Shown here: positions 38,273 to 61,400 of the stretch, in pieces
How positions within the stretch are numbered: position 1 is the first letter of the stretch
Layout: the number at the start of each line of letters is the position of its first letter
Assembly (NCBI GenBank): GCA_021292105.1
Contig: CM037874.1
Coordinates: forward strand, 35,328,185 to 35,392,184
From: Anadara kagoshimensis
Taxonomy: Eukaryota; Mollusca; Bivalvia; Arcoida; Arcidae
DNA: 64,000 bases
Direction: 5' to 3'
Position numbers and translations under genes: made by a program
Notes under the pieces: model-generated
Seen by the model: only the letters and a program-made list of their open reading frames with translations
What the model was told of the DNA's origin: nothing
Database searches by the model: none

Positions 38273-38507
38273 TGAACAATATTTTCAGTGCAGAAGTTGC
38301 CAAGTTCTACATTATATGGTACAATGTTAAACTTCATTGACTTGTTTTAGTCCAATAATCATAAATAGTGCTACGAGACTGAATGAAGTCTCAAAAATGT
38401 TTGTTTGTTCTTCAAATTGAAAATAAATTTTATTAAATATATTCATACTTTAGTGTTTTCTTTAATTTTCTCTTATTTGGATCTTTAAACTATACTAGGA
38501 GTATGGG

Positions 38508-38836
38508 AGTGGAGTCAAGTAATGGTGATTAAGTCCCAGTCAAGAATATTTCACTTATATCCAGACATTGCCAGCTATAGGCGAAGGTACAGAAATTTTG
38601 CCTATGCATTGCACTGATAGCATTATACGGCAGAGCTCTTTATTGTGCCATGCCTAGCGACACAGGACCTTGTTTATTTTAAGTTATCTGAAAGTACATA
38701 ACTTTCATTTTGTAATGTCGAGTTCTTGGCAAAAGAACAGTCACTACCCACTTTCAAGTCTTGGGTCAGACATTGTCGGGGTTTGAACCCACAACCTCCG
38801 TCATATTTAGTGAGCACTCTACTAACCAAGTTACTA
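38508..38836 (-). mobile_element. SINE family 2 copy, reversed
   Basis: On the minus strand the B box GGTTCAAACCC-like 'gggtttgaaccc' palindrome lies near 38,780. The body 'gggtagtgactgttcttttg' and the tail 'gactgggacttaatcaccat' follow. Confidence 0.8.
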
Positions 38837-38885
38837 GTTATATGGAATGCTATACATGCATGTCCATTTGTAGTGAAATCTTGAT

Positions 38886-39110
38886 TGATTGAACTTGGTT
38901 TTACATCCTAGTAAAGAATATTTCATTTGTCTGCCATGACATGGGGCATCAGGTTTTTCATAGGTCTCTTTCAAAGGAATCTGATTTTCATTTCTAAATG
39001 CAGAGTGCTTGGCTACCTATTTTCGAGTTTTGGTCAGATCCGGTTGATGTTCAAATCAATGACCTCCTATATGCAAAGCAAGCACTCTATCAACTGAGCT
39101 ACTGTAGTTG
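38886..39110 (-). mobile_element. SINE family 2 copy, reversed and shortened
   Basis: On the minus strand the head gtagctcagttgatagagtg is followed by 'ataggtagccaagcactctg' and 'tactaggatgtaaaaccaag'. It is shorter than the neighbouring copy. Confidence 0.75.
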
Positions 39111-39905
39111 TGAAATATTAATGATTTATTTAAGGATCGAACTTAGTACTGATTTATTGGATAGTTTAGTAGACGATGCGAAAATCGATTGAATGGTGAA
39201 GCCCAAAATAGGGCCCCAGATCCTATTATAAGAATGTTGGCTTGCTGAAGATGTTTTGGGGGAGTATTCTAGTTTCTTCTACAATTCCTAAATTGTCTCA
39301 ATATAAGTGAAAGAAACTTGGCTGAGGTGTAAAACTAAATTACTCTGCCAATGTTGCTTAACATATGTGAATTTTTTTTACAAATATTTTCGTCGAGCCA
39401 CTTTTGTCTTATCAATTTTGCATCACAGCTGCTACCTTGCTCTGTCTGCAGAGCTCTTGTTGTGTTGGGTTTCATGCATATTGTTTACATGTCTAATTTA
39501 GACCAGCTTTCTGAGTAGACATATAGATTGTTGTAATTATGTTTATGATAGCTAGACTTGTTTCATTCTTATGTGAACTCATGCAATTCATGGGATCGAG
39601 AAGTCAGCCACTCTAACACAAGATTGATTGAATGAGGTTTTTACATCCCAGTCAAGAATATTTCACTTATTTTGAGATGTTGCCAGGTAAAGGTGAAGTG
39701 CCAGACATTTTTACCTTTGCAGTGCCATTGGCTTCCTGCACTTTGCCCCAACCACACTCCGTGCAAAGGTTCAAATCTTATGGCATTGTGTTAGAGCACT
39801 CTCTAAGGGCCTGGCTCCAGTTTCTTCCATCTTGCAACGAAATTACTTTTTTTGTCAGACTACGATAAATAGTAAGTCAACAACAAGAACTGTATTTTTC
39901 GATGT

Positions 39906-39911
39906 TTTAAT
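39906..39911 (-). terminator. SELENOM poly(A) signal candidate (ATTAAA)
   Basis: The hexamer ATTAAA lies about 75 nt past the SECIS on the minus strand, a suitable place to end the 3' UTR. Confidence 0.5.
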
Positions 39912-39984
39912 ACAATAGTATTAAAAAAAATTAAAAATCTGAAATCAATCCTCACAAATTCTGACAAAACCTTCATACACCTTA

Positions 39985-40064
39985 CACCAGGCTCAGTATA
40001 TATACATCAATCATCAACTACAAGTGCTTTAAGTTGACAAAATCATCATTACTGCCCCCTGGTG
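39985..40064 (-). promoter_or_regulatory. SECIS element in the SELENOM 3' UTR
   Basis: A SECIS recruits SBP2/eEFSec so that UGA is read as Sec. On the minus strand, CACCAGG pairs with CCTGGTG and CAGTA with TACTG (helix I). An internal loop then leads to the AUGA core (40046-40043) facing UGAU (40009-40006), giving the non-Watson-Crick U.U/G.A/A.G/U.U quartet. Helix II is UUUGUCAACU with AGUUGAUGAU: nine of ten positions pair, including two G.U. A 12-nt apical loop starts UAAAG, placing the AA motif 12 nt after AUGA, as in canonical elements. The simple apical loop resembles form 1. Confidence 0.9.
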
Positions 40065-40407
40065 GAAGAATATGAAATTATTTATCAGTGCAAGTGTCGA
40101 GTCATTGCAAAAGCATACACACATAACAAAATATTTTAAATATTTTTCTTCATATACACAGCTACAAATAAATAACACTACATTTATAAAATGGCACCCA
40201 AAAAATTAAATTTTCAACCAAAATTTAAAATTTTTAAAAATTTTTTGAGATTGTTATATTTACTGGGGGTCCATACTTGTATAAAGTTTCAGTTTTTAAT
40301 TTCAAACTATTCACTCTGTAAATTTATTACAATCATGACATTAACAGTCATAATGCTCCTAAAAACTTTGCCAACTTCCTTTAATTTTCTTTGGTACGGG
40401 TGTTGAG

Positions 40408-40556
40408 GAATAATGGTGTTTTACACCCAGTCAAAACCCTTTCACTTATTAAATTAATGAGGTGGCCAGTTCTAGGAAGGAAACCAGTGCCTGGAGAAAT
40501 CTAACCACCTTCAGTGTGAACTAACATGCTTGAGAACACTTGGCCACCGAGGCCTC
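40408..40556 (-). mobile_element. SINE family 1 copy in the SELENOM 3' UTR
   Basis: On the minus strand it reads 'gaggcctcggtggccaagtg' at the head and 'ggtgtaaaacaccattatt' at the tail, with the B-box region deleted. It lies between the SELENOM stop and its SECIS, so it would be part of the mature 3' UTR. Confidence 0.7.
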
Positions 40557-40995
40557 TCCTTTGGGGAAAACAAGCTGTAACAAATGACATCGTTTCAAAT
40601 TGTTTCATGATAACCACTCACACATTTCATTCCAAATTTTAAACTTTTAAATTTCCAAATTTTACACTTTCAAACATTTAAATTGTAAAATTTTTGATAC
40701 AAATAATTGGTACCCCAGTCGACAAACTAACCCATCCATACAATTATGCAAATATTCACATGCACACTTTATCCATTTAGTGATTATCAAAACATCTGTT
40801 CTTGTGCATTTAAAATTTTGAAATTTAAAAAAAATATTTTGAGGTTAACGGTCTTAAATCAAAATTATGATCCTGAAATTTTGATATGCTTCATAAAATA
40901 TTTTGAGGATAACAATCTAGAAATTAAAATCATGATTCTGGAATTTAAATCTTTGTACTGCGTAATTTAAAATAATGTTTATTTATTTTTTATTT

Positions 40996-41133
40996 TTACA
41001 ATTCCTGCTTCTTCTCGTCATCATCATCATCATCATCGTCGTCGTCTTCATCTGCTGCCTTACGTTTTACGAAGTTTGTATCTTTTAACAGCTCGTTACA
41101 CTGTTCTCTGTTATAATTTGATAAATCTATTTT
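40996..41133 (-). CDS. SELENOM: SELENOM exon 4, acidic tail and ER-retrieval signal
   Basis: The acceptor is tttatttcag. The exon encodes KIDLSNYNREQCNELLKDTN, then FVKRKAADED, a poly-Asp run and EKKQEL before TAA. LSxxxREQxNxLL matches LSEMTREEINALV of human SELENOM. The frame stays open upstream into the intron to a spurious ATG at 41226. Confidence 0.93.
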   Translation of the reverse strand, partial: KIDLSNYNREQCNELLKDTNFVKRKAADEDDDDDDDDDDEKKQEL

Positions 41134-44100
41134 CTGAAATAAAAATATGTACCATAAATAATTACAATTCATGGATAAAAGTTCTGCTATGTTTTCACAT
41201 TTTAAAATAAGTGAAAATATAGCCATCAGTCACATCAGTCCCAGACAATGACCTTATTGCTCTGAAACCAAAATATGACAGATGAGTGAGTTGAAGAAGT
41301 CTGCCATAAAAGTGGCTGGGTATAAAGGAGAACTATAACTAATAAAGTATATTTGAGGTGTGCAGCTGGAAAATGTTCATCTTTCCTTTTTTAGCCTTTC
41401 CATTACTGTAACAGTATTACAAGTTGTTGCATAAACTAAAAAACCTTCATTGGCTACCAAACAAGGCGCACTTTCAACCACTAGGCCATTTAAGCTCCCT
41501 TAAAGATGAGGTAGCTACCATAAAGTGTGCACTTTCAACCACTTGGCCACTGCAGCTCCCTTAAAGATGAGGTAGCTACCAAAAAGTGTGCACTTTCAAC
41601 CACTAGGCCACTTAAGCTCCCTTAAAGATAAGGTAGCTACCAAAAGTATGCACTTTCAACCACTAGGCCACTTAAGCTTCCTTAAAGGTAAGGTAGCTAC
41701 CAAAAAGTGTGCACTTTCAACCACTAGGCCAATGAAGCTCCCTTAAAGATAAGGTAGCTACCAAAAAGTGTGCACTTTCAACCACTAGGCCAATGAAGCT
41801 CCCTTAAAGATGAGGTAGCTACCAAAAAGTGTGCACTATCAACCACTAGGCCACTTAAACTCCCTTAAAAATGAGGTAGCTACCAAAAAGTGTGCACTTT
41901 TTACCACTAGGCCATTTAAACTCCCTGAAAGATGAGGTGGCTACCAAAAAGTGTGCACTATCAACCACTAAGCCACTTTAACTCCCTTAAAGATGAGGTT
42001 GCTTCCAATCAACTACTTGGCCACTTAAACTCCCTTAAAGATGAGGTAGCTACCAAAAAGTGTGCACTATCAACCTCTAGGCCACTTAAACTCCCTTAAA
42101 GATGAGGTAATGAGCCAACACTGGTTGCATTGGACAAAATGAAATGTAATTAACATTATCGTTATGTGCACTTTCTGGTATTAAGAATGGGTCCTTTTAC
42201 TGGCCCCTGTTGAAATTACTGTTATATAATATCTTACCTCTACACTCTGTCCTGCTTCATTCAAAAAGTGTAAAACTGGTGGAGCACCAGGAACTTTTTT
42301 AAATTCAACATTGTCACTTAATTAACGTTAAGGAATTTTGTTGTCAATATGAGCCATTCAATAGCAAGCTATTAGACACCCCTAACATAGCAAGTGATTG
42401 GAGTGTAAAACTAGTACTTTTTTAAATTAAACATTGGAAAGTTAGAGAATAAATATTCTCACACCTTTGACATGGAAATCCCACATTTTTACCCATGTGG
42501 GATGTCCTTGTCTCACCCTCGGGTTGAGACAGGCTACATGCTTCACCTGAATAAACAGCTGTTTTCTGTGACCCTAGAAGCTTTTAATGGATTTTTAAAG
42601 GAATAAAAGGTGAAAAAAAGAGTCAATGGCTACTGGTCATATGAGATAGGGAAATCTCAACCCAAGGTCTTATATATTTTATATATTTATATACATGTAT
42701 TTTGGTCCACAACTTGGCAAGCCTTATTTTGGACCAAATATATATAAGACCTTGGGTTGAGATTTTTCTATTTCATATGACCAGTAGCGATAGATTGATT
42801 CATTCGATTAGTAATTAAATTCAATTTTCACAACAGGTTTATAATTTTCATCATGTTTATTGCTAGTTTAGAGAGGTTTCACTTCATTTTCAATTAATAT
42901 TACCTGATGTATTAATTACTTTTAATGTTTTTATCAAGAATTTTGCCTGCATACTGATTTTTATCTAAATACAGTCAGGTCAACAAGAGGTCAACAGACC
43001 TTACTGCTCACCCGAGGATATGTCCCATATCTCTTGCAGAACTAAAATACATCTCTATTTAAGTCTAGCTACAGTGTATTTATTAACAACAAAAATTGTG
43101 GTACCAAATGTATAAAACTAGGTCATTCCAGGCAGTATTCCAATACAACTGTGACCTTGACCTTTGAACTCATGACCTTCATCTATATATCACAACTATT
43201 GTTGTATCAATAAATTAAAATATTTTAATATATATATTCCTTTACATAAAGCTTAGTTTTTTCAGATAGTTGACCATTTCAGTATTTTTATGCTTTAGTG
43301 AGCTAAAAATTCTGACATGTTTGTAGGGTGAATTTGAACATAAAACTTTCCACTGTTGTAGATGTGACAGGACTTTTTCTAAATGACGTGTTTTTTATAC
43401 AATGTATTTATGATTAAAAAAAATACTGTGAAAATATATACAAGAGATACAATCTTTCTCATTTGGTGAATTTGAATGAAAATCTTTTCACTGCTGCAAA
43501 TGTAACAGGACTTTCTCTTAATGGCCTGTTTTTTATACAATGTATTTATGACTTGTGAAAATATACAAGAGATACAATCTTTCTCACCGGTGAATTTGAA
43601 TGAAAATCTTTTTCACTGTTGCAGATGTAACAGATTTTCTCTCAAAAACTTGTTTTTTATATTTATAATCTGTAACAATGTCGTGAAAATATACAAATGA
43701 TAAATCCTTCTCATATACAGAGCACCTGTTACAAATTTACATATATATTATTTAATCTCTTTACTTACTAATAAATGCTGCTACATACGCAAGACTAGTC
43801 CCAAGTGAAAAAACATCAAACAAAATATGTGATAAACCAATAAATCTGGCAACATATGGCCATTACGGTAATCTTAATAGCTTTAACTGAAACTTATCTT
43901 TCATATTATAACAATATTACAGTAAGAACCTTATTAAAAGTGGAGTGGAGTTAGGCATTTAATGTCTCAAGTCAAAATGATTTTCTTTTTACTTATACTG
44001 TCAGTACTTTGATGGCCTAGGAAACTCGAGTATGCTGACATAACTACCTACCTTATAGCTGTCAAGGGTGATAAGAGTTCAGTTGAGTTTGTTGTTTAAC

Positions 44101-47100
44101 ATTCCAGTCAAGAGTATTTAAATTATATCGAGACACCACCAGCTAAAGGTGAATGTGCAGAAATATTGCCTGTGCATTAAACAACCTTTTAAAAGACTGG
44201 CTCAGGTGGTCTAGCAAAAATCCAAGTTTGAATGAGTTAAAATACAGCTAATCTTAGCAAAATTCCATGTTTTACCTAAATTTGAGCATATGTACCTGTC
44301 ACTACCTGACCTGTTTTTGTTTTACATGGCATATGATCACTACTTTTATAATTATTAAAACAATGACACACAAGTCAGAGATTAGCATAGAAAACAAAAC
44401 TTATACTAGCACTAAACAAATGGAATAGAAAATTGTTTGAGGGCAGAGAAAGAAATCTTCCTCACCTGTGTCTCATAAGGTTAGCCGCCTGACCATGTGA
44501 TATCACACAGCGCTTGTACGGATCACTTGATTAATTGCATAAGATGACTCTTTACCTTATAAACAACTTCATTCCATGAATTTGCCATGTAAAGGTTTTA
44601 CAAAATGTCTTTCATAAACCTAAATGGTTATTTATCATGTGGTACACTTGGAAACCCTAATGTTTTGATTTTTTTCTTGTTACATAAAAAGGATACTACA
44701 GAGGGATGTCATCAAAAATGAATCTCTTCACCTCTGGTAGACGGTTCAAACGTCATCCAGCACAACTCTGAAATAGACAAAAAAAACATCTTAATATTTC
44801 TAAGAGAGAGATGTTTAAAATGGAATTGGGCTAGTTGAGGTGTAGACTTTGTGTCAAAAGTACAGTTAAACCTGCCTTAAAGATCATCTCTATATAAGGG
44901 CAACCTGCTCTTAAAGGCTAGAATTTTCTTTATTCCAATCAATCTTTACTAATGTTATTTGAACCGTTTAATAAGGGTCACCTGTTCCTAAAGACCACAT
45001 TGGTTCCTTAAGGTGGCTTTTGTAGACAGGTTTGACTGTAGATAAAATAATGTGGATTAACTGAGACTCTTCAGGGCTTCGATTATTCAATCGTCCACTT
45101 GTCCTGACGAGTGAAATTTATACTGGGACAAGTGAAGCTGTTATTGCACTCGTCAAGGTGCCGAGTTAAATTTATCAGACATATACTTCATGGGCTTGTT
45201 ACAATTAATAAACAACAGACAATTTAGTGTAGGTCGGGAAAATTGTGTATTTAAAGGAGGTCAATTGTAACGACCAGGGCCACTTTGTAAAAATCTTGGT
45301 GTTCTGTTACAAGCGTGAATCAACAAAATCATTTGAACGTTTGCATCATATGTGCAAACCGTTTCACATTCGGAAGTCACTTAGTGTAACGTAAAATCCA
45401 ACAGATGTTCCGAGTGTTTATATATTTGTCAGTCATCTGTAAAAGTACAGTATGTCAAAGAAACGTAAACAAACACAATATTATCTTTTACACTTGTGAT
45501 GACTGTGCAGAGTTAAATTTCCAATGGCCTGTTCTTCATAGGTGCAGACTCACTTATCACCTGGGACACGTAGGAACAGGGTTGAACCTAATTTCTGTTA
45601 ACCCTCTTGCTGCCAAACAGACATATGTGTACTCTACGGACAGCAATGGAATTGACAACTCTTGGTTAAAAGACAAAGATATACTCATAATCATTTTGTA
45701 AACAAAAATGCAAAAAGTTGACCCTTGAGATTATAATCTACGATGATGTCATGACTACAAATGTGTCCCGTATCATAACCTATTGTTGACGTCATATCAT
45801 TTCGCATTGTGAACTTCAATTTGGCACTGCCAATGTTGCATTGAAAATTAATTTGGCAGCAAGAGGGTTAATCCAATGGCAGTAGTTTGAAAAAAGTTTC
45901 AGATTTGATGGATAATATCAAAATTTCAGAGCATTACCAAACTTGGATATTTGTGCCAACTTGTTGAGCTTTTTATATATTGCAATGTTTAAAAGTTTCC
46001 ATATATAGATCTATGTTCATGCTTCTAAAAATAAAACTGGCAATGTGAAAATAAAAGTAGAAATCCATGTCAGCAGTTACACATATCTTAATCTTAAAAA
46101 AATATGACAGCGAACTTTAAAACTTCGAAATTTAAGTCGCTTAATCAACTGATGTATGAAAGACATTTTAAGTTTTCAATGTTTATTTGTATACTTTCAG
46201 TCACAGGGGCCAGTTTCATAATAAAATTTAAAAAATACCGATAAGTATATAAACAAGAGGCCCATGGGCCTTAACGCTCACCTGTGATCTTTGAACCCAT
46301 GAGCTTCATTCAAATATCAAAATGATAATTCGGCCAATATTCTAATATACATCCCTATACAAAAAGTTTATAGTTTTTGAGATAAATAATCATCTCAGTA
46401 CTTGTTTGTATCTGTGATCTTGACATTTGAACCCATGACCTTCATTCATATATCAAAATGATCATTAGGATAATACCTAAATATTCTAATATACATGCCT
46501 ATACAAAAGGTTTATAGTTTTTGAGATAAATAATCATTTCAGACCTTGTTCACATCTGTGACCTTGACCTTTGAACCCATAACCTTCATTCATATATCAA
46601 AATGGTTGTTAGGCTAATACCTACAATATTCTAATATACATGCATATACAAAAGTTAACAGTTTTCAAGATAATTAACCATTCAGGTATTCATTCACATC
46701 TGTGACCTTGACCTTTGAACTCATGACCTTTATTCATATATCAAAATGACCAATGGGCCATTACCTACAATATTCTAATATACATGCCTATACAAAAAGT
46801 CTATAGGTTTAGAGATAAATAATCATTTCAGTACTTGTTTACATCTGTGACCTTGACCTTTGAACTCATGACCTTTATTTATATATCAAAATGACCATTG
46901 GGCCATTACCTACAATATTCTAATATACATGCCTATACAAAAAGTTCATAGTTTTGCAGATAATTAACTATTTTGGTAAACTTGTACATCTGTGACCTTG
47001 ACCTTTGAACCCATGAACTTAATCGATATATCAAAATGATCGTCATGTCAATACCTACAATTAACCAAAAATCCTACATCATTATCACCAGAAATGTTTA

Positions 47101-49087
47101 AAAAATAGCATTTTTTATCAAAGGTCAAAAACTGGGACATGACCTTGACCTTTGACCTTGACATCAATCGGAAGAAAATCGCAAGACAAGATCAACAGTG
47201 AAAACTCCATACAATTATCTTCAGCCATTATGAAGTTATAACAATAAATGTCTCATTTTAAAAATTACATAATTTTACGCAAAAAACGCGTAACCTATTT
47301 TTCGTTCAATTTTCATGAAAAACACAATTTTAGTGTATCTAGGTATCCTGAATCCAAATATCCAATCAAAATTTGCCTGCACCTTTTGGTTTCAGAGAAG
47401 AAGATTTTTTTGTCTTTTGGCTATTTATAGTAACGGCAGCCATATTGTTGGGCGTGGCCAAACCCCGAACACAATTTTGAAAGCCTGTTACCCAGGCATA
47501 ATAATCACCAAGTTTCATCAAATTTGGCTCAGTAGTTTTGGAGGAGAAGATTAAAATGTAAAGTTTACGCACGACGGACGACGGACGACGGACGACGAAC
47601 GACGGACGGTGATAGATAGCAATAGCTCATCTGAGCCTTTCGGCTCAGGTGAGCTAAAAAGAGTAAAGGGGAACAACGAATCGGATCTTTCAAGTGTAGG
47701 TGCTCCGACAAAACTCTACATTACTTTTTTAATTTGTGTCCGACCATTGTGATCTTGGTGTCATTTTGTTCCCAGATAAATATTCTTTAAGTTGGTATTC
47801 AATTTTTGGACATAATTTAAAATCTAAATAAAATGTTCAAACGGAAAACACAGAAAAACAGTGTAATTTTGCCCGATGTAGCTAAGCCCGTCCATGTAAA
47901 AGTAGCTTAAAATTCGCATTACGCTCATGTTTTTCACTACCAGCGTCCGTGTCAACTACAAATGCTGATGTGGATCGAAGAACTAAATAAAAAGCAATAA
48001 ATTTCAAAGGTAATCGTTACTCACTTCTAAATCTACAAGCTATTATATCCTATTTTGTTCCAACGCGGACCAACTTTCCTCTATCATGCTTCCATTTTGA
48101 GCTAATACAAAAAGCATGTACCGCGCATGTGTTATAGCTGTTATTCGATTGGTTAAAAACATTTCAATATACTCTGTATTTATGAAAATTTAAGAAAATG
48201 AAATTACATTAACTTATTTGATCTTTCTTTTTTAAGTATAAATCGTTATAAAGTCATTTTGATAGAAAGTTTGATACATTGACAAAATTCTACAAATGCC
48301 AACGGAGGGGGTGAAATATTTTTAACCAATCAAATCGCAGCTTAAAATAACTGCATATATAATAACAAGATGGAGGCGTGATAGAGGAAAGTTGGTCCGC
48401 GTTGGAATAAAATAGGATATAATAGCTTGTAGATTTAGAAGTGACTAACGGTTACCTTTGAAATTTATTGCTTTTTATTTAGTTCTTCGATCCACATCAG
48501 CATTTGTAGTTGACACGGACGCTGGTAGTGAAAAACATGAGCGTAATGCGAATTTTAAGCTACTTTACATGGACGGGCTTAGCTACATCGGGCAAAATTA
48601 CACTGTTTTTCTGTGTTTTCCGTTTGAACATTTTATTTAGATTTTAAATTATGTCCAAAAATTGAAAGCCAACTTAAAGAATATTTATCTGGGAACAAAA
48701 TGACACCAAGATCACGATGATCGGACACAAATTAAAAAAGTAATGTAGAGTTTTGTCGGAGCACCTACACTTGAAAGATCCGATTCGTTGTTCCCCTTTA
48801 CTCTTTTTATATACTTATCGGTATTTTTTAAATTTTATTATGAAACTGGCCCCTGTGCTTTCAGTCTTTGTCGGCAACCCCCCCCCCCCCCCCCATCCAC
48901 CTTCCCTTTTCCACATAAATATTGGAAATATTGCATATAAAATAGCAAGTAATCACATGTAATTTACCTCTACTCGTGCTTTGACAATATTTTTATCTGT
49001 TATAACTTCATTTTCTTCGTCGTCATCCGCCGTAACTATCGTTACAGCCAGAACAAACGCCAACACATGAAGAACCTTCATCTTCAT
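40996..49087 (-). CDS. SELENOM: Selenoprotein M, four exons with in-frame TGA (Sec)
   Basis: Selenoprotein M is an ER-lumen thioredoxin-fold selenoprotein linked to redox and calcium handling. Exons on the minus strand are 48968-49087, 44697-44767, 42238-42316 and 40996-41133; phases are 0, 2 and 0, and all junctions are GT-AG. The product is 135 residues (human has 145). It has a signal peptide (MKMKVLHVLAFVLAVTIVTA), an acidic linker, then ARVESCAGU with selenocysteine at residue 45, RLNRLPEVKRFIFDDIPLY, KKVPGAPPVLHFLNEAG, an acidic run of ten Asp, and a C-terminal KQEL fitting the ER-retrieval pattern. Human SELENOM has ARVETCGGU, QLNRLKEVKAF and HLPGADPE at the same places, which separates it from SELENOF. 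A SECIS element lies about 930 bp after the stop. The gene is convergent with GCN1. Confidence 0.95.
41434..42113. repeat. 61-bp minisatellite with an embedded Pol III A box (SELENOM intron 3)
   Basis: About 11 units carry the core gtagctaccaaaaagtgtgc and actttcaaccactaggccac; one unit is truncated near 42,008. On the minus strand most units contain TGGCCTAGTGG, which fits the A-box consensus TGGCNNAGTGG exactly. The same head opens the SINE at 15,032, so the array probably arose by amplifying a SINE head. Confidence 0.93.
42238..42316 (-). CDS. SELENOM: SELENOM exon 3
   Basis: The acceptor ttaattaag has a weak pyrimidine tract and the donor is gtaag. The first base completes Tyr. The exon encodes DNVEFKKVPGAPPVLHFLNE then AGQSVE, matching the PGAxPxL thioredoxin-fold segment of the family. 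Confidence 0.92.
42629..42788. mobile_element. Palindromic MITE, SELENOM intron 2
   Basis: The long arms begin gctactggtcatatgagata and end tatttcatatgaccagtagc, with about 55 bp paired (including aaatctcaacccaaggtctt). Sequence resembling one arm (ggatagggaaatctcaccct) lies at about 36,157 in the last GCN1 intron. Confidence 0.85.
43328..43705. repeat. ~125-bp tandem repeat, three units (SELENOM intron 2)
   Basis: The units run from ggtgaatttgaatgaaaatc through 'tgtttttta' and 'acaagagatacaatctttct', with the middle one best preserved. Confidence 0.8.
43706..44065 (-). other. SELENOM intron 2, unassigned stretch
   Basis: AT-rich intron sequence with no recognised repeat or exon. Confidence 0.5.
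44066..44182 (-). mobile_element. SINE family 2 tail fragment (SELENOM intron 2)
   Basis: On the minus strand it reads ttaatgcacaggcaatattt, 'cacctttagctggtggtgtc' and 'gactggaatgttaaacaaca', matching the 3' body of the copies at 890 and 38,508. Confidence 0.65.
44697..44767 (-). CDS. SELENOM: SELENOM exon 2, contains the Sec codon
   Basis: The acceptor is ctatttcag and the donor is gtatcc. The 71 nt encode SCAGU, then RLNRLPEV, KRFIFDDIPL and the first two bases of Tyr. The TGA splits the open frame, which is why simple ORF searches miss this exon. Confidence 0.94.
44753..44755 (-). other. Selenocysteine codon (UGA recoded)
   Basis: The TGA falls exactly at the Sec position of the CxxU redox motif, here C-A-G-U. 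The family usually has C-G-G-U. The reading frame continues with high SELENOM similarity on both sides. Confidence 0.94.
44861..45040. mobile_element. MITE family M2 copy (SELENOM intron 1)
   Basis: The 180-bp copy has ends tacagttaaacctgccttaa and gacaggtttgactgta. It lies about 95 bp upstream of SELENOM exon 2 in transcript terms. Confidence 0.8.
45602..45867. mobile_element. piggyBac-type MITE with TTAA target duplication
   Basis: It is flanked by TTAA on both sides (45598-45601 and 45868-45871). The ends are ccctcttgctgccaaa and tttggcagcaagaggg. The length is 266 bp. TTAA duplication with CCC-starting ends is the piggyBac signature. Confidence 0.85.
46254..47656. mobile_element. Nested 1.4-kb insertion with hairpin end
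   Basis: It begins caagaggcccatgggcctta and ends in the hairpin agctcatctgagcc-tttc-ggctcaggtgagct (47625-47656), then CTAA-like sequence. It contains about six tandem units of ~144 bp (ctgtgaccttgacctttgaa, about 46,284-47,040) and an acggacg microsatellite (47,570-47,610). A related hairpin (tagctcacctga) lies at 18,430-18,455. The hairpin plus CTRR-like end recalls non-autonomous Helitrons, but the usual 5' TC is not seen. Confidence 0.75.
46284..47040. repeat. ~144-bp tandem repeat inside the nested insertion
   Basis: About six units carry gaccttgacctttgaaccca and 'tattctaatatacatgccta'. Diverged single units occur near 43,130-43,200. Confidence 0.85.
48878..48895. repeat. Poly(C) run
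   Basis: An uninterrupted run of about 18 C lies just outside the hAT-type element, about 75 bp from SELENOM exon 1. Its length is likely uncertain in the assembly. Confidence 0.9.
48968..49087 (-). CDS. SELENOM: SELENOM exon 1
   Basis: The start ATG is at 49085-49087. A second in-frame ATG two codons later could also serve; either precedes the hydrophobic signal core. The 40 codons end KNIVKARVE and are followed by donor gtaaat. The acidic DDDEEN stretch follows the predicted signal cleavage. Confidence 0.93.
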
Positions 49088-49110
49088 GTTGTAATATGAA
49101 TACACATAGA

Positions 49111-49120
49111 CACTTCCGGT
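49111..49120 (-). promoter_or_regulatory. ETS-type site in the SELENOM proximal promoter
   Basis: ACCGGAAGTG on the minus strand is a perfect ETS-family core, 24 bp upstream of the start codon. Sites like this are typical of TATA-less housekeeping promoters. The actual transcription start is not visible. Confidence 0.5.
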
Positions 49121-49479
49121 TAGAGACGTGTCAAAATAACCTCGTCCCCAGATGAAAAAATTGATTATTTTGAATTAATCACAGGTCTAAGATTCCTTTT
49201 AATATTTTTAAAAATATATATTCTGTATTGATTCAATAAAATCACAATGGTTGATTATGGCAAGATAAACAAGATATATTGAAGAAAGGCAAGCATACAT
49301 AATATTTTTCCGTGAATAGTTTTATTTATTTTGCCATAAAATATTCACCTTGTAGCGGTAGACAGTTTGTCTTTTTCCACAGTACTGTTAAGTTGTTATT
49401 TTACTTTTTTTTTTTAATTATTTTAAACAATTTTCATGCCTAATTAATAAATTATTTTTTCTGGCTATTAAGTTTTTTT
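49121..49479. other. SELENOM upstream region before the satellite
   Basis: An AT-rich stretch without ORFs or repeats that I recognise separates the SELENOM start from the satellite. It contains several T runs. No TATA box is evident at a convincing distance. Confidence 0.4.
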
Positions 49480-52400
49480 TTTGGGTCGAATGTTGCCGGC
49501 TAGTTATTAATGAACAAAATAAAATGTGAAAATAACGAAAAGTGAACAAAAACCCATATCACAATAAACGATGATAATAGTTTTATCGGAAACAAAGGTA
49601 AAGTGGTAGCTGGTACATGCTGCATTGTGGCCTAACTTGGTACTTGCACTGTTTTGTTATCACGGGGAGGGGTTAGCGCGAACGCAGAACCCGCACACTA
49701 AAACATTACGACCCGAGTCATCCACATTAGTGATGATTGCAAGAGTTATCCAATCCGAAGTGCAACGGAAAGGGCATCATCCCGGAAACCCGCCTTGCAG
49801 ATTTCAATTAGAGACTGTTTCGTTGAGTACTTATGTGATTTCATAAATGCAATGAAAGGTGTCCATGAAAATTTTCACTTTAAATAGTTTTAATTGTGCC
49901 GGCAAAACTAGGTAAAAACTATAATACATGTTTCAAGTTATTTTCTTAAAATTTTGGTACTTACGGAAAACTGTGTAGTTCCATTTTTGTTGCGAAATAC
50001 TCCAAAATTCACTATTAAAATCCTAAAAATCGCTTTAACACAAAACGTTGTACATACGTTTCAAGTGTGCATCATACACTACCCGTTTTGAACGTTTCCT
50101 CTGCGTTTTCGCAACTTTTAGCATGAAAACACACTCCGCAAACTGCATTCCGACTTTTTCAGTAACATTCGCAATTCTTCTTAGTTACCGACTGTGACGT
50201 CATACCGGATGTTCTTGTTGCACTTGTGACGTCACAATCAATTTTTAGTGATTTTGTAAGACCCGACTTTTTCGGTGTTTTTCGCTATTTTTCATGCATT
50301 GAATGTTGTCGGCAGGTTTTTGATGACACAAACTAAAATGTGACAATTGTGAAAAGTGCGAAATATGCACAAAAACCTATAAAATTAAGAATATCACAAT
50401 AAAACGATGATAATAGTTTTATCGGAAACAAAGGGTAAAGTGGTAGCTGGTACATGCTGCATTGTTGCCTAGCTTGGTACTTGTACTGTTTTGTTATCAC
50501 GGGGAGGGGTTAGCGCGAACGCAGAACCCGCACACTAATACATTCCGTACCCGAGTCATCCACATTAGTGATCGCAAGAGTTAGCCAATCCGAAGTGCAA
50601 CGAAAGGGCATCATCCCGGAAGACCCGCCTTGCAGATCTCAATTAGAGACTGTTTCGTTGAGTACTTATGTGATTTCATAAATGCAATGAAAAGTGTCCA
50701 TGAAAATTTTCACTTTAAATAGTTTTAATTGTGCCGGCAAAACTAGGTAAAAACTATAATACATGTTTTCAAAGTTATTTTCTTAAAATTTTGGTACTTA
50801 CGGAAAACTGTGTAGTTCCATTTTTGTTGCGAAATACTTCAAAATTCACTATTAAAATCCTAAAAATCGCTTTAACACAAAACGTTGTACATACGTTTCA
50901 AGTGTGCATCATACACTACCCGTTTTGAACGTTTCCTCTGCGTTTTCGCAACTTTTAGCATGAAAACACACTCCGCAAACTGCATTCCGACTTTTTCAGT
51001 AACATTCGCAATTCTTCTTAGTTACCGACTGTGACGTCATACCGGATGTTCTTGTTGCACTTGTGACGTCCCACAATCAATTTTTAGTGATTTTGTAAGA
51101 CCCGACTTTTTCGGTGTTTTTCCGCTATTTTTCACGCATTGAATGTTGTCGGCAGGTTTTTGATGACCAAACTAAAATGTGACAATTGTGAAAAGTGCGA
51201 AATATGCACAAAAACCTATAAAATTAAGAATATCACAATAAAACGATGATAATAGTTTTATCGGAAACAAAGGGTAAAGTGGTAGCTGGTACATGCTGCA
51301 TTGTTGCCTAGCTTGGTTCTTGTACTGTTTTGTTATCACGGGGAGGGGTTAGCGCGAACGCAGAACCCGCACACTAATACATTCCGTACCCGAGTCATCC
51401 ACATTAGGTGATCGCAAGAGTTAGCCAATCCGAAGTGCAACGGAAAGGGCATCATCCCGGAAGACCCGCCTTGCAGATCTCAATTAGAGACTGTTTCGTT
51501 GAGTACTTATGTGATTTCATAAATGCAATGAAAAGGTGTATATGAAAATTTTCACTTTAAATAGTTTTAATTGTGCCGGCAAAACTAGGTAAAAACTATA
51601 ATACACGTTTTCAAAGTTATTTTCTTAAAATTTTGGTACTTACGGAAAACTGTGTAGTTCCATTTTTGTTGCGAAATACTTCAAAATTCACTATTAAAAT
51701 CCTAAAAATCGCTTTAACACAAAACGTTGTACATACGTTTCAAGTGTGCATCATACACTACCCGTTTTGAACGTTTCCTCTGCGTTTTCGCAACTTTTAG
51801 CATGAAAACACACTCCGCAAACTGCATTCCGACTTTTTCAGTAACATTCGCAATTCTTCTTAGTTACCGACTGTGACGTCATACCGGATGTTCTTGTTGC
51901 ACTTGACGTCACAATCAATTTTTGTGATTTTGTAAGACCCGACTTTTTCGGTGTTTTTTCGCTATTTTTCATGCATTGAAGGTTTCGGCAGGTTTTGATG
52001 ACACAAACTAAATGTGACAATTGTGAAAAGTGCGAATATGCACAAAAACCTATAAAATTAAGAATATCACAATAAACGATGATAATAGTTTTTATCGGAA
52101 ACAAAGGGTAAAGTGGTAGCTGGTACATGCTGCATTGTTGCCTAGCTTGGTACTTGTACTGTTTTGTTATCACGGGAGGGGTTAGCGCGAAACGCAGAAC
52201 CCGCACACTAATACATTCCGTACCCGAGTCATCCACATTAGGTGATCGCAAGAGTTAGCCAATCCGAAGTGCAACGGAAAGGGCATCATCCCGGAAGACC
52301 CGCCTTGCAGATCTCAATTAGAGACTGTTTCGTTGAGTACTTATGTGATTTCATAAATGCAATGAAAAGGTGTCCATGAAAATTTTCACTTTAAATAGTT

Positions 52401-55400
52401 TTAATTGTGCCGGCAAACTAGGTAAAAACTATAATACATGTTTTCAAAGTTATTTTCTTAAATTTTGGTACTTACGGAAAACTGTGTAGTTCCATTTTTG
52501 TTGCGAAATACTTCAAAATTCACTATTAAAATCCTAAAAATCGCTTTAACACAAAACGTTGTACATACGTTTCAAGTGTGCATCATACACTACCCGTTTT
52601 GAACGTTTCCTCTGCGTTTTCGCAACTTTTAGCATGAAAACACACTCCGCAAACTGCATTCCGACTTTTTCAGTAACATTCGCAATTCTTCTTAGTTACC
52701 GACTGTGACGTCATACCGGATGTTCTTGTTGCCTTGTGACGTCACAATCAATTTTTAGTGATTTTGTAAGACCCGACTTTTTCGGTTTTTTCGCTATTTT
52801 TTCACGCATTGAATGTTGTCGCAGGTTTTTGATGACACAAACTAAAATGTGACAATTGTGAAAAGTGCGAAATATGCACAAAAACCTATAAAATTAAGAA
52901 TATCACAATAAAACGATGATAATAGTTTTATCGGAAACAAAGGGTAAAGTGTGACTGGTACATGCTGCATTGTTGCCTAGCTTGGTACTTGTACTGTTTT
53001 GTTATCACGGGGAGGGGTTAGCGCGAACGCAGAACCCGCACACTAATACATTCCGTACCCGAGTCATCCACATTAGGTGATCGCAAGAGTTAGCCAATTC
53101 GAAGTGCAACGGAAAGGGCATCATCCCGGAAGACCCGCCTTGCAGATCTCAATTAGAGACTGTTTCGTTGAGTACTTATGTGATTTCATAAATGCAATGA
53201 AAAGGTGTCCATGAAAATTTTCACTTTAAATAGTTTTAATTGTGCCGGCAAAACTAGGTAAAAACTATAATACATGTTTTCAAAGTTATTTTCTTAAAAT
53301 TTTGGTACTTACGGAAAACTGTGTAGTTCCATTTTTGTTGCGAAATACTCCAAAATTCACTATTAAAATCCTAAAAATCGCTTTAACACAAAACGTTGTA
53401 CATACGTTTCAAGTGTGCATCATACACTACCCGTTTTGAACGTTTCCTCTGCGTTTTCGCAACTTTTAGCATGAAAACGCACTCCGCAAACTGCATTCCG
53501 ACTTTTTCAGTAACATTCGCAATTCTTCTTAGTTACCGACTGTGACGTCATACCGGATGTTCTTGTTGGACTTGTGACGTCACAATCAATTTTTAGTGAT
53601 TTTGTAAGACCCGACTTTTTCGGTGTTTTTCGCTATTTTTCACGCATTGAATGTTGTCGGCAGGTTTTTGATGACACAAACTAAAATGTGACAATTGTGA
53701 AAAGTGCGAAATATGCACAAAAACCTATAAAATTAAGAATATCACAATAAAACGATGATAATAGTTTTATCGGAAACAAAGGGTAAAGTGGTAGCTGGTA
53801 CATGCTGCATTGTTGCCTAGCTTGGTTCTTGTACTGTTTTGTTATCACGGGGAGGGGTTAGCGCGAACGCAGAACCCGCACACTAATACATTCCGTACCC
53901 GAGTCATCCACATTAGGTGATCGCAAGAGTTAGCCAATCCGAAGTGCAACGGAAAGGGCATCATCCCGGAAGACCCGCCTTGCAGATCTCAATTAGAGAC
54001 TGTTTCGTTGAGTACTTATGTGATTTCATAAATGCAATGAAAGGTGTCCATGAAAATTTTCACTTTAAATAGTTTTAATTGTGCCGGCAAAACTAGGTAA
54101 AAACTATAATACATGTTTTCAAAGTTATTTTCTTAAATTTTGGTACTTACGGAAAACTGTGTATTCCATTTTTGTTGCGAAATACTTCAAAATTCACTAT
54201 TAAAATCCTAAAAATCGCTTTAAACACAAAACGTTGTACATACGTTTCAAGTGTGCATCATACAATACCCGTTTTTGAACGTTTCCTCTGCGTTTTCGCA
54301 ACTTTTAGCATGAAAACACACTCCGCAAACTGCATTCCGCTTTTTCAGTAACATTCGCAATTCTTCTTAGTTACCGACTGTGACGTCATACCGATGTTCT
54401 TGTTGCACTTGTGACGTCACAATCCAATTTTTAGTATTTTGTAAGACCCGACTTTTTCGGTGTTTTTCGCTATTTTTCACGCATTGAATGTTGTCGGCAG
54501 GTTTTTGATGACACAAACTAAATGTGACATTGTGAAAAGTGCGAAATATGCACAAAAACCTATAAAATTAAGAATATCACAATAAAACGATGATAATAGT
54601 TTTATCGGAAACAAGGGTAAAGTGTGACTGGTACATGCTGCATTGTTGCCTAGCTTGGTACTTGTACTGTTTTGTTGTCACGGGGAGGGGTTAGCGCGAA
54701 CGCAGAACCGCACACTAATACATTCCGTACCCGAGGTCATCCCATTAGGTGATCGCAAGAGTTAGCCAATCCGAATGCAACGGAAAGGGCATCATCCCGG
54801 AAGACCCGCCTTGCAGATCTCAATTAGAGACTGTTTCGTTGAGTACTTATGTGATTTCATAAATGCAATGAAAGGTGTCCATGAAAATTTTCACTTTAAA
54901 TAGTTTTAATTGTGCCGGCAAAACTAGGTAAAACTATAATAATGTTTTCAAAGTTTTTTCTTAAAATTTTGGTACTTACGGAAACTGTGTAGTTCCATTT
55001 TTGTTGCGAAATACTCCAAAATTCACTATTAAATCCTAAAAATCGCTTTAATAACAAAACGTTGTACTACGTTTCAAGTGTGGCATCATACACTACCCCG
55101 TTTGAACGTTTCCTCTGCGTTTTCGCAACTTTTAGCATGAAAACGCACTCCGCAAACTGCATTCCCGACTTTTTCAGTAACATTCGCAATTCTTCTTAGT
55201 TTACCGACTGTGACGTCATACCGATGTTCTTGTTGCACTTGTGACGTCACAATCAATTTTTAGTGATTTTGTAAGACCCGCTTTTTCGGTGTTTTTCGCT
55301 ATTTTTCACGCATTGAATGTTGTCGGCAGTTTTTGATGACACAAACTAAAATGTGACAATTGTGAAAGTGCGAAATATGCACAAAAACCTATAAAATTAA

Positions 55401-58400
55401 GAATATCACAATAAACGATGATAATAGTTTTTATCGGAAACAAAGGGTAAAGTGGTAGCTGGTACATGCTGCATTGTTGCCTAGCTTGGTTCTTGTACTG
55501 TTTTGTTATCACGGGGAGGGGTTAGCGCGAACGCAGAACCCGCACACTAATCATTCCGTACCCGAGTCATCCACATTAGGTGATCGCAAGAGTTAGCCAA
55601 TCCGAAGTGCAACGGAAAGGGCATCATCCCGAAGACCCGCCTTGCAGATCTCATTAGAGACTGTTTCGTTGAGTACTTAGGTGATTTCATAAATGCAATG
55701 AAAGGTGTATATGAAATTTTCACTTTAAATAGTTTTTAATTGTGCCGGCAAAACTAGTAAAAACTATAATACACGTTTTCAAAGTTTATTTTCTTAAATT
55801 TTGGTACTTACGGAAAACTGTGTAGTTCCATTTTTGTTGCGAATACTTCAAAATTCACTATTAAAATCCTAAAATCGCTTTAACACAAAACGGTTGTACA
55901 TACGTTTCAAGTGTGCATCATACCTACCCGTTTGAACGTTTCCTCTGCGTTTTCGCGCACTTTTAGCATGAAAACACACTCGCAAACTGCATTCCGACTT
56001 TTTCAGTAACATTCGCAATTCTTCTTAGTTTACCGACTGTGACGTCATACCGGATGTTCTTGTTGCACTTGTGGACGTCACAATCAATTTTTAGTGATTT
56101 TGTAAGACCCGCTTTTTCGGTGTTTTTTCGCTATTTTTCATGCATTGAATGTTGTCGGCAGGTTTTTGATGACACAAACTAAAATGTGACAATTGTGAAA
56201 ATTGCGAAATATGCACAAAAACCTATAAAATTAAGATATCACATAAAACGATGATAATAGTTTTATCGGAAACAAGGGTAAAGTGTAGCTGGTACATGCT
56301 GCATTGTTGCTAGCTTGGTACTTGTACTGTTTTGGTTATCACGGGGGGGGTTAGCGCGAACGCAGAACCGCACACTAATACATTTCCGTACCCGAGTCAT
56401 CCACATTAGGTGATCGCAAGAGTTAGCCAATCCGAAGTGCAACGGAAAGGGCATCATCCCGGAAGACCCGCCTTGCAGATCTCAATTAGACTTTTTCGTT
56501 GAGTACTTATGTGATTTCATAAATGCAATGAAAAGGTGTCCATGAAAATTTTCACTTTAAATAGTTTTTAATTGTGCCGCAAAACTAGGTAAAACTATAA
56601 TACATGTTTTCAAAGTTATTTTTCTTAAAATTTTTGGTACTTACGGAAACTGTGTAGTTCCATTTTGTTGCGAAATACTTCAAATTCACTATTAAAATCC
56701 TAAAAATCGCTTTCCACAAAACGTTGTACATACGTTTTCAAGTGTGCATCATACACTACCCGTTTTGGAAGTTTCCTCTGCGTTTTCGCAACTTTTAGCA
56801 TGAAAACACTCCGCAAACTGCATTCCGACTTTTTCAGTAACATTCGCAATTCTTCTTAGTTTACCGACTGTGACGTCATACCGGATGTTCTTGTTGCCGT
56901 GTGACGTCACAATCAATTTTTAGTGATTTTTGTAAGACCCGACTTTTTCGGTGTTTTTTTCGCTATTTTTTCACGCATTGAATGTTGTCGGCAGGTTTTT
57001 GATGACACAAACTAAAATGTGACAATTGTGAAAAGTGCGAAATATGCACAAAAACCTATAAAATTAAGAATATCACAATAAACGATGATATAGTTTTATC
57101 GGAAACAAAGGGTAAAGTGGTAGCTGGTACATGCTGCATTGTTGCCTAGCTTGGTTCTTGTACTGTTTTGTTATCACGGGGAGGGTTAGCGCGAACGCAG
57201 AACCCGCACACTAATACATTCCGTACCCCGAGTCATCCACATTAGGTGATCGCAAGAGTTAGCCAATCCGAAGTGCAACGGAAAGGGCATCATCCCGGAA
57301 GACCCGCCTTGCAGATCTCAATTAGAGACTGTTTCGTTGAGTACTTATGTGATTTCATAAATGCAATGAAAAGGTGTATATGAAATTTTCACTTTAAATA
57401 GTTTTAATTGTGCCGGCAAAACTAGTAAAAACTATAATCACGTTTTCAAAGTTATTTTCTTAAATTTTGGTACTTACGGAAAACTGTGTAGTTCATTTTT
57501 GTTGCGAAATACTTCAAAATTCACTATTAAAATCCTAAAAATCGCTTTAACACAAAACGTTTGTACATACGTTTCAAGTGTGCATCATACACTACCCGTT
57601 TTGAACGTTTCCTCTCGTTTTCGCAACTTTTAGCATGAAACCACACTCCGCAAACTGCATTCCGACTTTTTCAGTAACATTCGCAATTCTTCTTAGTTTA
57701 CCGACTGTGACGTCATACCGGATGTTCTTGTTGCACTTGTGACGTCACAATCAATTTTAGTGATTTTGTAAAGACCCGACTTTTTCGGTGTTTTTCGCTA
57801 TTTTTCATGCATTGAATGTTGTCGCAGGTTTTTGATGACACAAACTAAAATGTGACAATTGTGAAAAGTGCGAAATATGCACAAAAACCTATAAAATTAA
57901 GAATATCACAATAAACGATGATAATAGTTTTATCGGAAACAAAGGTAAAGTGGTAGCTGGTACATGCTGCATTGTTGCCTAGCTTGGTACTTGTACTGTT
58001 TTGTTATCACGGGGAGGGGTTAGCGCGAACGCAGAACCCGCACACTAATACATTCCGTACCCGAGTCATCCACATTAGGTGATCGCAAGAGTTAGCCAAT
58101 CCGAAGTGCAACGGAAAGGGCATCATCCCGGAAGACCCGCCTTGCAGATCTCAATTAGAGACTGTTTCGTTGAGTACTTATGTGATTTCATAAATGCAAT
58201 GAAAAGGTGTCCATGAAAATTTTCACTTTAAATAGTTTTAATTGTGCCGGCAAAACTAGGTAAAAACTATAATACATGTTTTCAAAGTTATTTTCTTAAA
58301 ATTTTGGTACTTACGGAAAACTGTGTAGTTCCATTTTTGTTGCGAAATACTTCAAAATTCACTATTAAAATCCTAAAAATCGCTTTAACACAAAACGTTG

Positions 58401-61400
58401 TACATACGTTTCAAGTGTGCATCATACACTACCCGTTTTGAACGTTTCCTCTGCGTTTTCGCAACTTTTAGCATGAAAACACACTCCGCAAACTGCATTC
58501 CGACTTTTTCAGTAACATTCGCAATTCTTCTTAGTTACCGACTGTGACGTCATACCGGATGTTCTTGTTGCACTTGTGACGTCACAATCAATTTTTAGTG
58601 ATTTTGTAAGACCCGACTTTTTCGGTGTTTTTCGCTATTTTTCACGCATTGAATGTTGTCGGCAGGTTTTTGATGACACAAACTAAAATGTGACAATTGT
58701 GAAAAGTGCGAAATATGCACAAAAACCTATAAAATTAAGAATATCACAATAAACGATGATAATAGTTTTAATCGGAAACAAAGGGTAAAGTGGTGCTGGT
58801 ACATGCTGCATTGTTGCCTAGCTTGGTACTTGTACTGTTTTGTTATCACGGGGAGGGGTTAGCGCGAACGCAGAACCCGCACACTAATACATTCCGTACC
58901 CGAGTCATCCACATTAGGTGATCGCAAGAGTTAGCCAATTCGAAGTGCAACGGAAAGGGCATCATCCCGGAAGACCCGCCTTGCAGATCTCAATTAGAGA
59001 CTGTTTTCGTTGAGTACTTATGTGATTTTCATAAATGCAATGAAAAGGTGTCCATGAAAATTTTCACTTTAAATAGTTTTAATTGTGCCGGCAAAACTAG
59101 GTAAAAACTATAATACATGTTTTCAAAGTTATTTTCTTAAAATTTTGGTACTTACGGAAAACTGTGTAGTTCCATTTTTGTTGCGAAATACTTCAAAATT
59201 CACTATTAAAATCCTAAAAATCGCTTTAACACAAAACGTTGTACATACGTTTCAAGTGTGCATCATACACTACCCGTTTTGAACGTTTCCTCTGCGTTTT
59301 CGCAACTTTTAGCATGAAAACACACTCCGCAAACTGCATTCCGCGACTTTTTCAGTAACATTCGCAATCTTCTTAGTTACCGACTGTGACGTCATAACCG
59401 ATGTTCTTGTTGCACTTGTGACGTCACAATCAATTTTTAGTGATTTTGTAAGACCCGACTTTTTCGGTGTTTTTCGCTATTTTTCACGCATTGAATGTTG
59501 TCGGCAGGTTTTTGATGACACAAACTAAAATGTGACAATTGTGAAAAGTGCGAAATATGCCACAAAACCTATAAAATTAAGAATATCACAATAAAACGAT
59601 GATAATAGTTTTATCGGAAACAAAGGGTAAAGTGGTAGCTGGTACATGCTGCATTGTTGCCTAGCTTGGTTCTTGTACTGTTTTGTTATCACGGGGAGGG
59701 GTTAGCGCGAACGCAGAACCCGCACACTAATACATTCCGTACCCGAGTCATCCACATTAGGTGATCGCAAGAGTTCCAATCCGAAGTGCAACGGAAAGGG
59801 CATCATCCCGGAAGACCCGCCTTGCAGATCTCAATTAGAGACTGTTTCGTTGAGTACTTATGTGATTTCATAAATGCAATGAAAAGGTGTCCATGAAAAT
59901 TTCACTTTAAATAGTTTTTAATTGTGCCGGCAAAACTAGTAAAACTATAATACATGTTTTCAAAGTTATTTTCTTAAAATTTTGGTACTTACGGAAAACT
60001 GTGTAGTTCCATTTTTGTTGCGAAATACTTCAAAATTCACTATTAAAATCCTAAAAATCGCTTTAACACAAAACGTTGTACATACGTTTCAAGTGTGCAT
60101 CATACACTACCCGTTTTGAACGTTTCCTCTGCGTTTTCGCAACTTTTAGCATGAAAACACACTCCGCAAACTGCATTCCGACTTTTTCAGTAACATTCGC
60201 AATTCTTCTTAGTTACCGACTGTGACGTCATACCGGATGTTCTTGTTGCACTTGTGACGTCACAATCAATTTTTAGTGATTTTGTAAGACCCGACTTTTT
60301 CGGTGTTTTTCGCTATTTTTCACGCATTGAATGTTGTCGGCAGGTTTTTGATGACACAAACTAAAATGTGACAATTGTGAAAAGTGCGAAATATGCACAA
60401 AAACCTATAAAATTAAGAATATCACAATAAAACGATGATAATAGTTTTATCGGAAACAAAGGGTAAAGTGTGACTGGTACATGCTGCATTGTTGCCTAGC
60501 TTGGTACTTGTACTGTTTTGTTATCACGGGGAGGGGTTAGCGCGAACGCAGAACCCGCACACTAATACATTCCGTACCCGAGTCATCCACATTAGGTGAT
60601 CGCAAGAGTTAGCCAATTCGAAGTGCAACGGAAAGGGCATCATCCCGGAAGACCCGCCTTGCAGATCTCAATTAGAGACTGTTTCGTTGAGTACTTATGT
60701 GATTTCATAAATGCAATGAAAAGGTGTCCATGAAAATTTTCACTTTAAATAGTTTTAATTGTGCCGGCAAAACTAGGTAAAAACTATAATACATGTTTTC
60801 AAAGTTATTTTCTTAAAATTTTGGTACTTACGGAAAACTGTGTAGTTCCATTTTTGTTGCGAAATACTCCAAAATTCACTATTAAAATCCTAAAAATCGC
60901 TTTAACACAAAACGTTGTACATACGTTTCAAGTGTGCATCATACACTACCCGTTTTGAACGTTTCCTCTGCGTTTTCGCAACTTTTAGCATGAAAACGCA
61001 CTCCGCAAACTGCATTCCGACTTTTTCAGTAACATTCGCAATTCTTCTTAGTTACCGACTGTGACGTCATACCGGATGTTCTTGTTGCACTTGTGACGTC
61101 ACAATCAATTTTTAGTGATTTTGTAAGACCCGACTTTTTCGTGTTTTTCGCTATTTTTCACGCATTGAATGTTGTCGGCAGGTTTTTGATGACACAAACT
61201 AAAATGTGACAATTGTGAAAAGTGCGAAATATGCACAAAAACCTATAAATTAAGAATATCACAATAAACGATGATAATAGTTTTATCGGAAACAAAGGGT
61301 AAAGTGTGACTGGTACATGCTGCATTGTTGCCTAGCTTGGTACTTGTACTGTTTTGTTATCACGGGGAGGGGTTAGCGCGAACGCAGAACCCGCACACTA

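Follow-up and report, generated by a model that had tools for sequence, protein, structure and literature searches.

Selenoprotein M (SELENOM) has an N-terminal signal peptide, and its SECIS element lies in the 3' UTR. Two solved structures serve for comparison with the locus described here: PDB 2a2p (Selenoprotein M), which we take to be the mouse protein, and PDB 2a4h (Sep15, also known as SELENOF). Among molluscs, selenoprotein P has reportedly been the subject of a study by Baclaocos et al. in 2019. The excerpts of published work drawn on here and below term the CXXU selenoproteins, M included, putative oxidoreductases (PMC7278666), count SelM in 4 of 6 invertebrates, with no SelM count for the limpet Lottia in the table columns as read (PMC3473315), and list selenoprotein M contigs in two freshwater mussel transcriptomes (PMC3934898). 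Among the titles listed by literature searches on selenoproteins in molluscs, bivalves, clams and oysters, none is devoted to molluscan SELENOM, and nothing on the subject was found in the excerpted text of PMC10169727.

The locus lies on the minus strand of the 64-kb stretch of DNA that was analysed (referred to as the window). We consider it very probable that this is an intact animal SELENOM gene in which UGA45 is decoded as selenocysteine (Sec) by way of a downstream AUGA_AA SECIS element, and that its product is a thioredoxin-like oxidoreductase retained in the endoplasmic reticulum (ER). The candidate coding sequence (CDS 40996-49087) consists of four coding exons, read directly from the sequence, and encodes a product of 135 amino acids (aa). 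Its features are as follows:

48968-49087, minus strand: exon 1, coding part, 120 nt; acidic stretch, ends ...KARVE
49087-49085, minus strand: start codon ATG, in exon 1
44697-44767, minus strand: exon 2 with the Sec codon, 71 nt; SCAGURLNRLPEVKRFIFDDIPLY, final codon split by the intron
44753-44755, minus strand: Sec45, the in-frame TGA of the CxxU motif C-A-G-U; aligns with the last C of 2a2p CGGC
42238-42316, minus strand: exon 3, 79 nt; DNVEFKKVPGAPPVLHFLNEAGQSVE
40996-41133, minus strand: exon 4, coding part, 138 nt including TAA; ...FVKRKAADE(D)n EKKQEL
40996-40998, minus strand: stop codon TAA, in exon 4

All three introns are GT-AG, and the exon start phases (0, 0, 2, 0) are mutually consistent. 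Direct reading of the exons, introns, ATG and TAA confirmed the four-exon structure proposed in the first-pass annotation, as well as the in-frame TGA within C-A-G-U, which is codon 45. The N-terminus is hydrophobic and signal-peptide-like as judged by eye, and the KQEL tail, also claimed earlier, can be seen in the sequence: the C-terminus has a poly-Asp run followed by EKKQEL. The remark that exon 2 has no listed open frame and would therefore be hidden from ORF-based annotation holds, since none of the three ORFs of at least 20 aa over this exon is in the frame of the gene. Selenoprotein genes hidden from standard annotation are a known general problem: according to an excerpt of PMC12822975, just 11% of vertebrate selenoprotein genes are well annotated in Ensembl and 5% in GenBank.

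Exon 2 ends in two tandem GT donors, GTATCC after 44697 and GTAGTA after 44700, which lead to the junction sequences DIPLYDNVEF and DIPLDNVEF, respectively. The donor after 44697 adds a tyrosine, with which the score for the Pfam family PF08806 rises from 75.8 to 87.2 bits and that for 2a2p from 63.3 to 71.7 bits; the alignment to 2a2p is gapless over 86 residues with this donor and gapped with the other. Because of the better Pfam and 2a2p scores and the gapless alignment, 44697-44767 was taken as exon 2, giving the 135-aa product. The alternative exon (44700-44767, with GTAGTA as donor) was rejected, as it loses the tyrosine and 11.4 Pfam bits and introduces a gap relative to 2a2p. On visual inspection the exon 3 acceptor looks weak, as do the two donors, which probably makes the exon 2/exon 3 junction the least certain part of the gene model.

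A Pfam profile search identified the Sep15/SelM redox domain in the candidate: PF08806 (Sep15_SelM) matches residues 37-108 of the 135-aa model with 87.2 bits (7.5e-25; cut-off 26 bits). When solved structures were searched, 2a2p matched residues 33-118 without gaps across the Sec position (71.7 bits, E=5.5e-19); 2a4h was the second match (33.5 bits, 3.6e-7), and the third and final one, 1g9u (9e-5), was taken for chance. Both the PF08806 and the 2a2p matches span the TGA, bearing out the earlier statement that SELENOM-specific sequence is present on either side of it. SELENOM identity, already proposed in the first-pass annotation, is upheld by the Pfam match and by the score for 2a2p, well above that for 2a4h. 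With 2a2p, the candidate shares the active site (CxxU here, CGGC in the 2a2p chain) and the gapless domain; it differs in that CAGU replaces CGGC and in that its KQEL tail is placed behind a poly-Asp run. An NCBIfam search of the candidate returned 0 families. In a whole-genome Pfam search in which 11 candidates were scored, the single match listed was a SELENOF exon, none of 14 prokaryote controls matched, and the SELENOM locus was absent, presumably because its exons are short.

Since one Pfam family covers both SELENOF and SELENOM, with the PF08806 redox domain common to the two, the candidate might be thought a SELENOF copy. We regard the chance of this as close to negligible: the comparison with the two solved structures places the candidate closer to SELENOM than to SELENOF (71.7 vs 33.5 bits), its motif is CxxU and not the CxU of SELENOF, and the same genome already has a separate SELENOF locus on contig C3 (68.7 bits, Pfam), where the upstream exon reads VCGUKLGRFPQVQ and the motif is CGU. 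This SELENOF gene has its own SECIS element, located about 1.4 kb downstream of the stop codon in the last matched exon, which scores 37.2 bits with the Rfam model SECIS_1 (cut-off 35).

Matches to the Sec machinery were also found in the genome. Fourteen tRNA-Sec matches were listed, 2 of them over the cut-off (both on C19, 77.8 bits each) and 12 below it, and a 12-kb stretch of C1 contains 7 matches to the SepSecS family; for SepSecS, as for SELENOF, a single locus was found. Taken singly, a tRNA-Sec or SepSecS match carries less weight than it might seem to, since the tRNA-Sec model matches all 14 prokaryote controls (5 over the cut-off) and SepSecS is over its cut-off in 3 of the 14, including Bacillus subtilis. 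The machinery matches, together with a SELENOF gene that has its own SECIS, make Sec decoding likely in the host organism.

A SECIS candidate is found downstream of the SELENOM stop codon:

39987-40063 (core 40046-40006), minus strand: SECIS candidate, 950 nt past the SELENOM stop
40046-40043 (ATGA), 40030-40029 (apical AA) and 40009-40006 (TGAT), minus strand: SECIS core elements, pattern ATGA-N12-AA

In helix I, CCAGG/CAGUA pairs with UACUG/CCUGG, and helix II has 8-9 pairs following a U-U mismatch. AUGA_AA is the majority form of invertebrate SECIS elements (PMC3473315, in excerpt), and the AA loop is as in SELENOM of vertebrates outside placental mammals, the loop of placental SELENOM being CC (PMC3316567, in excerpt). 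A pattern-and-helix scan with an explicit pairing register gave five matches over both strands of the window (3 minus, 2 plus), of which the SECIS candidate is the best (-25.4); the same scan also recovers the SELENOF SECIS. The candidate was equalled in 0/500 shuffles of a 1.5-kb 3' flank (48/500 held any match) and in 1/4000 shuffles of a 2-kb flank (350/4000 held any match), in comparisons that were not blind, as the rule was written once the candidate had already been spotted by eye. Conservation is independent of the scan rule: when 38498-41440 is aligned with a second copy of the gene (described below), the longest identical run (115 nt, 40095-39981) encloses the candidate, the next being 78 nt, and between 51 and 98 positions are identical in the other 100-nt windows. 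The element in the second copy has the same pattern-and-helix score.

Other searches were less favourable to the candidate. On a short stretch, SECIS_1 scores it at 20.8 bits, below the cut-off of 35; it was not detected by an Rfam search at the gathering threshold, nor was it listed in an Rfam search of 4.1 kb at E<=10. Its fold energy is modestly low (z -1.94 and -1.85, with 9/200 shuffles folding equally well in each case). The candidate was absent among the 8 minus-strand matches listed by a first SECIS scan because that scan demanded a strict folded hairpin; its best match in the window was a plus-strand site in intron 3 (41248-41294, -23.0). A genome-wide SECIS_1 search, in which 150 of 25467 candidates were scored, listed 5 sites, all below the cut-off, with neither the SELENOM nor the SELENOF SECIS among them; as this search also matched in 4 of the 14 prokaryote controls, it says little. 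Elsewhere in the genome, SECIS-like sites below the Rfam cut-off fit the helix scan (L026 and L027, both at 1510-1558; L028, 1511-1555; L030, 1510-1554) and may mark other selenoprotein genes, or be chance.

SECIS elements and C/D boxes have a kink-turn-like core in common. The 3' element could on this count be a C/D-box snoRNA: by eye it has a box C (AUGAUGA), a box D (CUGA), a GGC/GCC terminal stem and a second UGAUGA, and the models snoR116 (23.6 bits), snoU31b (22.7 bits) and SNORD41 (20.9 bits) score it on a par with or above SECIS_1 (20.8 bits), all under their own cut-offs (47 for the best of the snoRNA models, at 23.6 bits). We nevertheless think a snoRNA unlikely. With the boxes and terminal stem held fixed, 0/5000 shuffles gave helices I and II equally good (helix I alone was matched in 11/5000 and hairpin II alone in 101/5000), so a SECIS accounts for more of the element's sequence. 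In addition, the place of box D' is without CUGA by eye, and the stop codon and the next minus-strand match to the SECIS pattern (22223-22180, -23.0, adjacent to a tandem repeat with a 104-bp unit at 22256-22458) are over 18 kb apart.

We infer that the downstream element is included in the SELENOM transcript. Several possible poly(A) signals bear on this point:

40978-40994 (first bases 40994, 40987 and 40983), minus strand: three AATAAA, possible proximal poly(A) signals, directly after the stop in A/T-rich sequence, by string match
40385, 40328 and 40300 (starts), minus strand: further AATAAA/ATTAAA strings ahead of the SECIS, by string match
39906-39911, minus strand: ATTAAA beyond the SECIS, a possible distal poly(A) signal, by string match

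Those that precede the SECIS candidate count against its inclusion in the gene model. In our own reading of the alignment, one of the three stop-adjacent AATAAA remains in the second copy. It is conceivable, if very doubtful, that the stop-adjacent cluster yields a short mRNA lacking the SECIS, and that the poly(A) site used determines whether full-length selenoprotein M or a truncated 44-residue product is made; if true, Sec decoding would be under an additional level of regulation.

A protein search of the genome gave eight exon matches, four belonging to the SELENOM gene and four to a second copy on the same contig:

C18:36244002-36252753: second copy of the SELENOM gene, about 875 kb from the first copy

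The CxxU motif with Sec from an in-frame TGA is present in both copies. Their coding sequences differ by one Asp codon indel and six substitutions, all synonymous and five of them downstream of the TGA, in a comparison that is shallow if the two copies are haplotypes, as is possible. Exon 1 has one synonymous change; exon 2 with the TGA and exon 3 are identical (132/132 with flanks for exon 3); and exon 4 is one Asp codon shorter in the second copy and has five synonymous changes. The chance that 5/5 changes downstream of the TGA would be synonymous is approximately 3e-4 to 2e-3 at a neutral synonymous fraction of 0.19-0.28. This pattern shows protein-level constraint on the coding part after the TGA, and the coding part ahead of it is constrained as well. 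Across 38498-46202, identity in the aligned blocks is 84-91%, and intron 1 is 4200 nt long in the first copy vs 1133 nt in the second. Some of the blocks farther out are closer to the second copy, with 98.2% identity at 22626-27491 and 96.7% at 48894-61285, the latter mostly satellite.

These data bear on whether the gene might be a decaying SELENOM pseudogene, one whose TGA really terminates translation and whose coding sequence beyond that point is a relic. The presence of two copies, one of which could be redundant, leaves room for such a history, but we judge it highly improbable: neither copy has lost the reading frame, the splice sites or the tail, not one of the substitutions between them (five of which lie downstream of the TGA) alters an amino acid, exon 3 and its flanks have no differences at all, and the SECIS candidate is unchanged. 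An intact gene is thus the preferred reading, and recoding of the UGA is supported by the finding that every substitution downstream of the TGA is synonymous, by the SECIS candidate and by the Sec machinery matches. The second copy, the SECIS candidate and the choice of exon 2 donor are additions to what the first-pass annotation had described.

There are two collinear blocks, with 35.333 Mb corresponding to 36.203 Mb and 35.600 Mb to 34.725 Mb; one of the blocks contains the window, and each has one of the two matches in the genome to nuclear RNase P RNA. The match in the window is as follows:

27794-28084, minus strand: nuclear RNase P RNA gene, 163.2 bits

The blocks are either unpurged haplotypes or a real tandem duplication of approximately 875 kb, and we lean towards haplotypes. 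On C18 (34.7-36.3 Mb), C19, C13 and C17, similar loci occur in pairs spaced 0.75-1.6 Mb apart on the same contig, the C17 pair being oppositely oriented; the paired loci include tRNA-Sec and SECIS-like sites, suggesting unpurged haplotypes or large duplications. Upstream of SELENOM, repeat units of about 830-839 bp form a tandem satellite that reaches the end of the window (49556-64000); it is also found beside the second copy, and the duplicated block may have its boundary at this satellite.

Repeats are also present within the introns. Intron 1 contains a tandem repeat with a 144-bp unit (46335-47061), which includes GACCTTGACCTTTGAAC, and a near-perfect inverted repeat (47655-48809) with arms of 246 and 201 nt that are 98% and 97% complementary, perhaps a fold-back element; by alignment coordinates, the inverted repeat is without a match in the second copy. 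Intron 3 has a minisatellite (41453-42109) with about 9 copies of a 61-bp unit, the array in the second copy being longer (about 2.9 kb). At about 9.8-31.4 kb on the plus strand are candidate exons of a large HEAT-repeat protein, presumably GCN1-like, for which all Pfam matches are under the cut-off. One of these exons matches the 2898-residue PDB chain 8i9x_LR (5.4e-14), whose label, Ribosomal protein L19, looks to be mistaken.

Based on these comparisons, the SELENOM gene would be transcribed and spliced as modelled, and the UGA at codon 45 of its mRNA would be read through as selenocysteine under the direction of the AUGA_AA SECIS. We predict that a signal peptide directs the product into the ER, that the KQEL tail retains it there, and that Cys42-Ala-Gly-Sec45 serves as the redox site of what would be a small thioredoxin-like thiol-disulfide oxidoreductase. 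The locus extends the known SELENOM family and leaves knowledge of the family unchanged; it provides a complete gene model, with a candidate SECIS, for a type of gene that is often cut short or missed by general pipelines.
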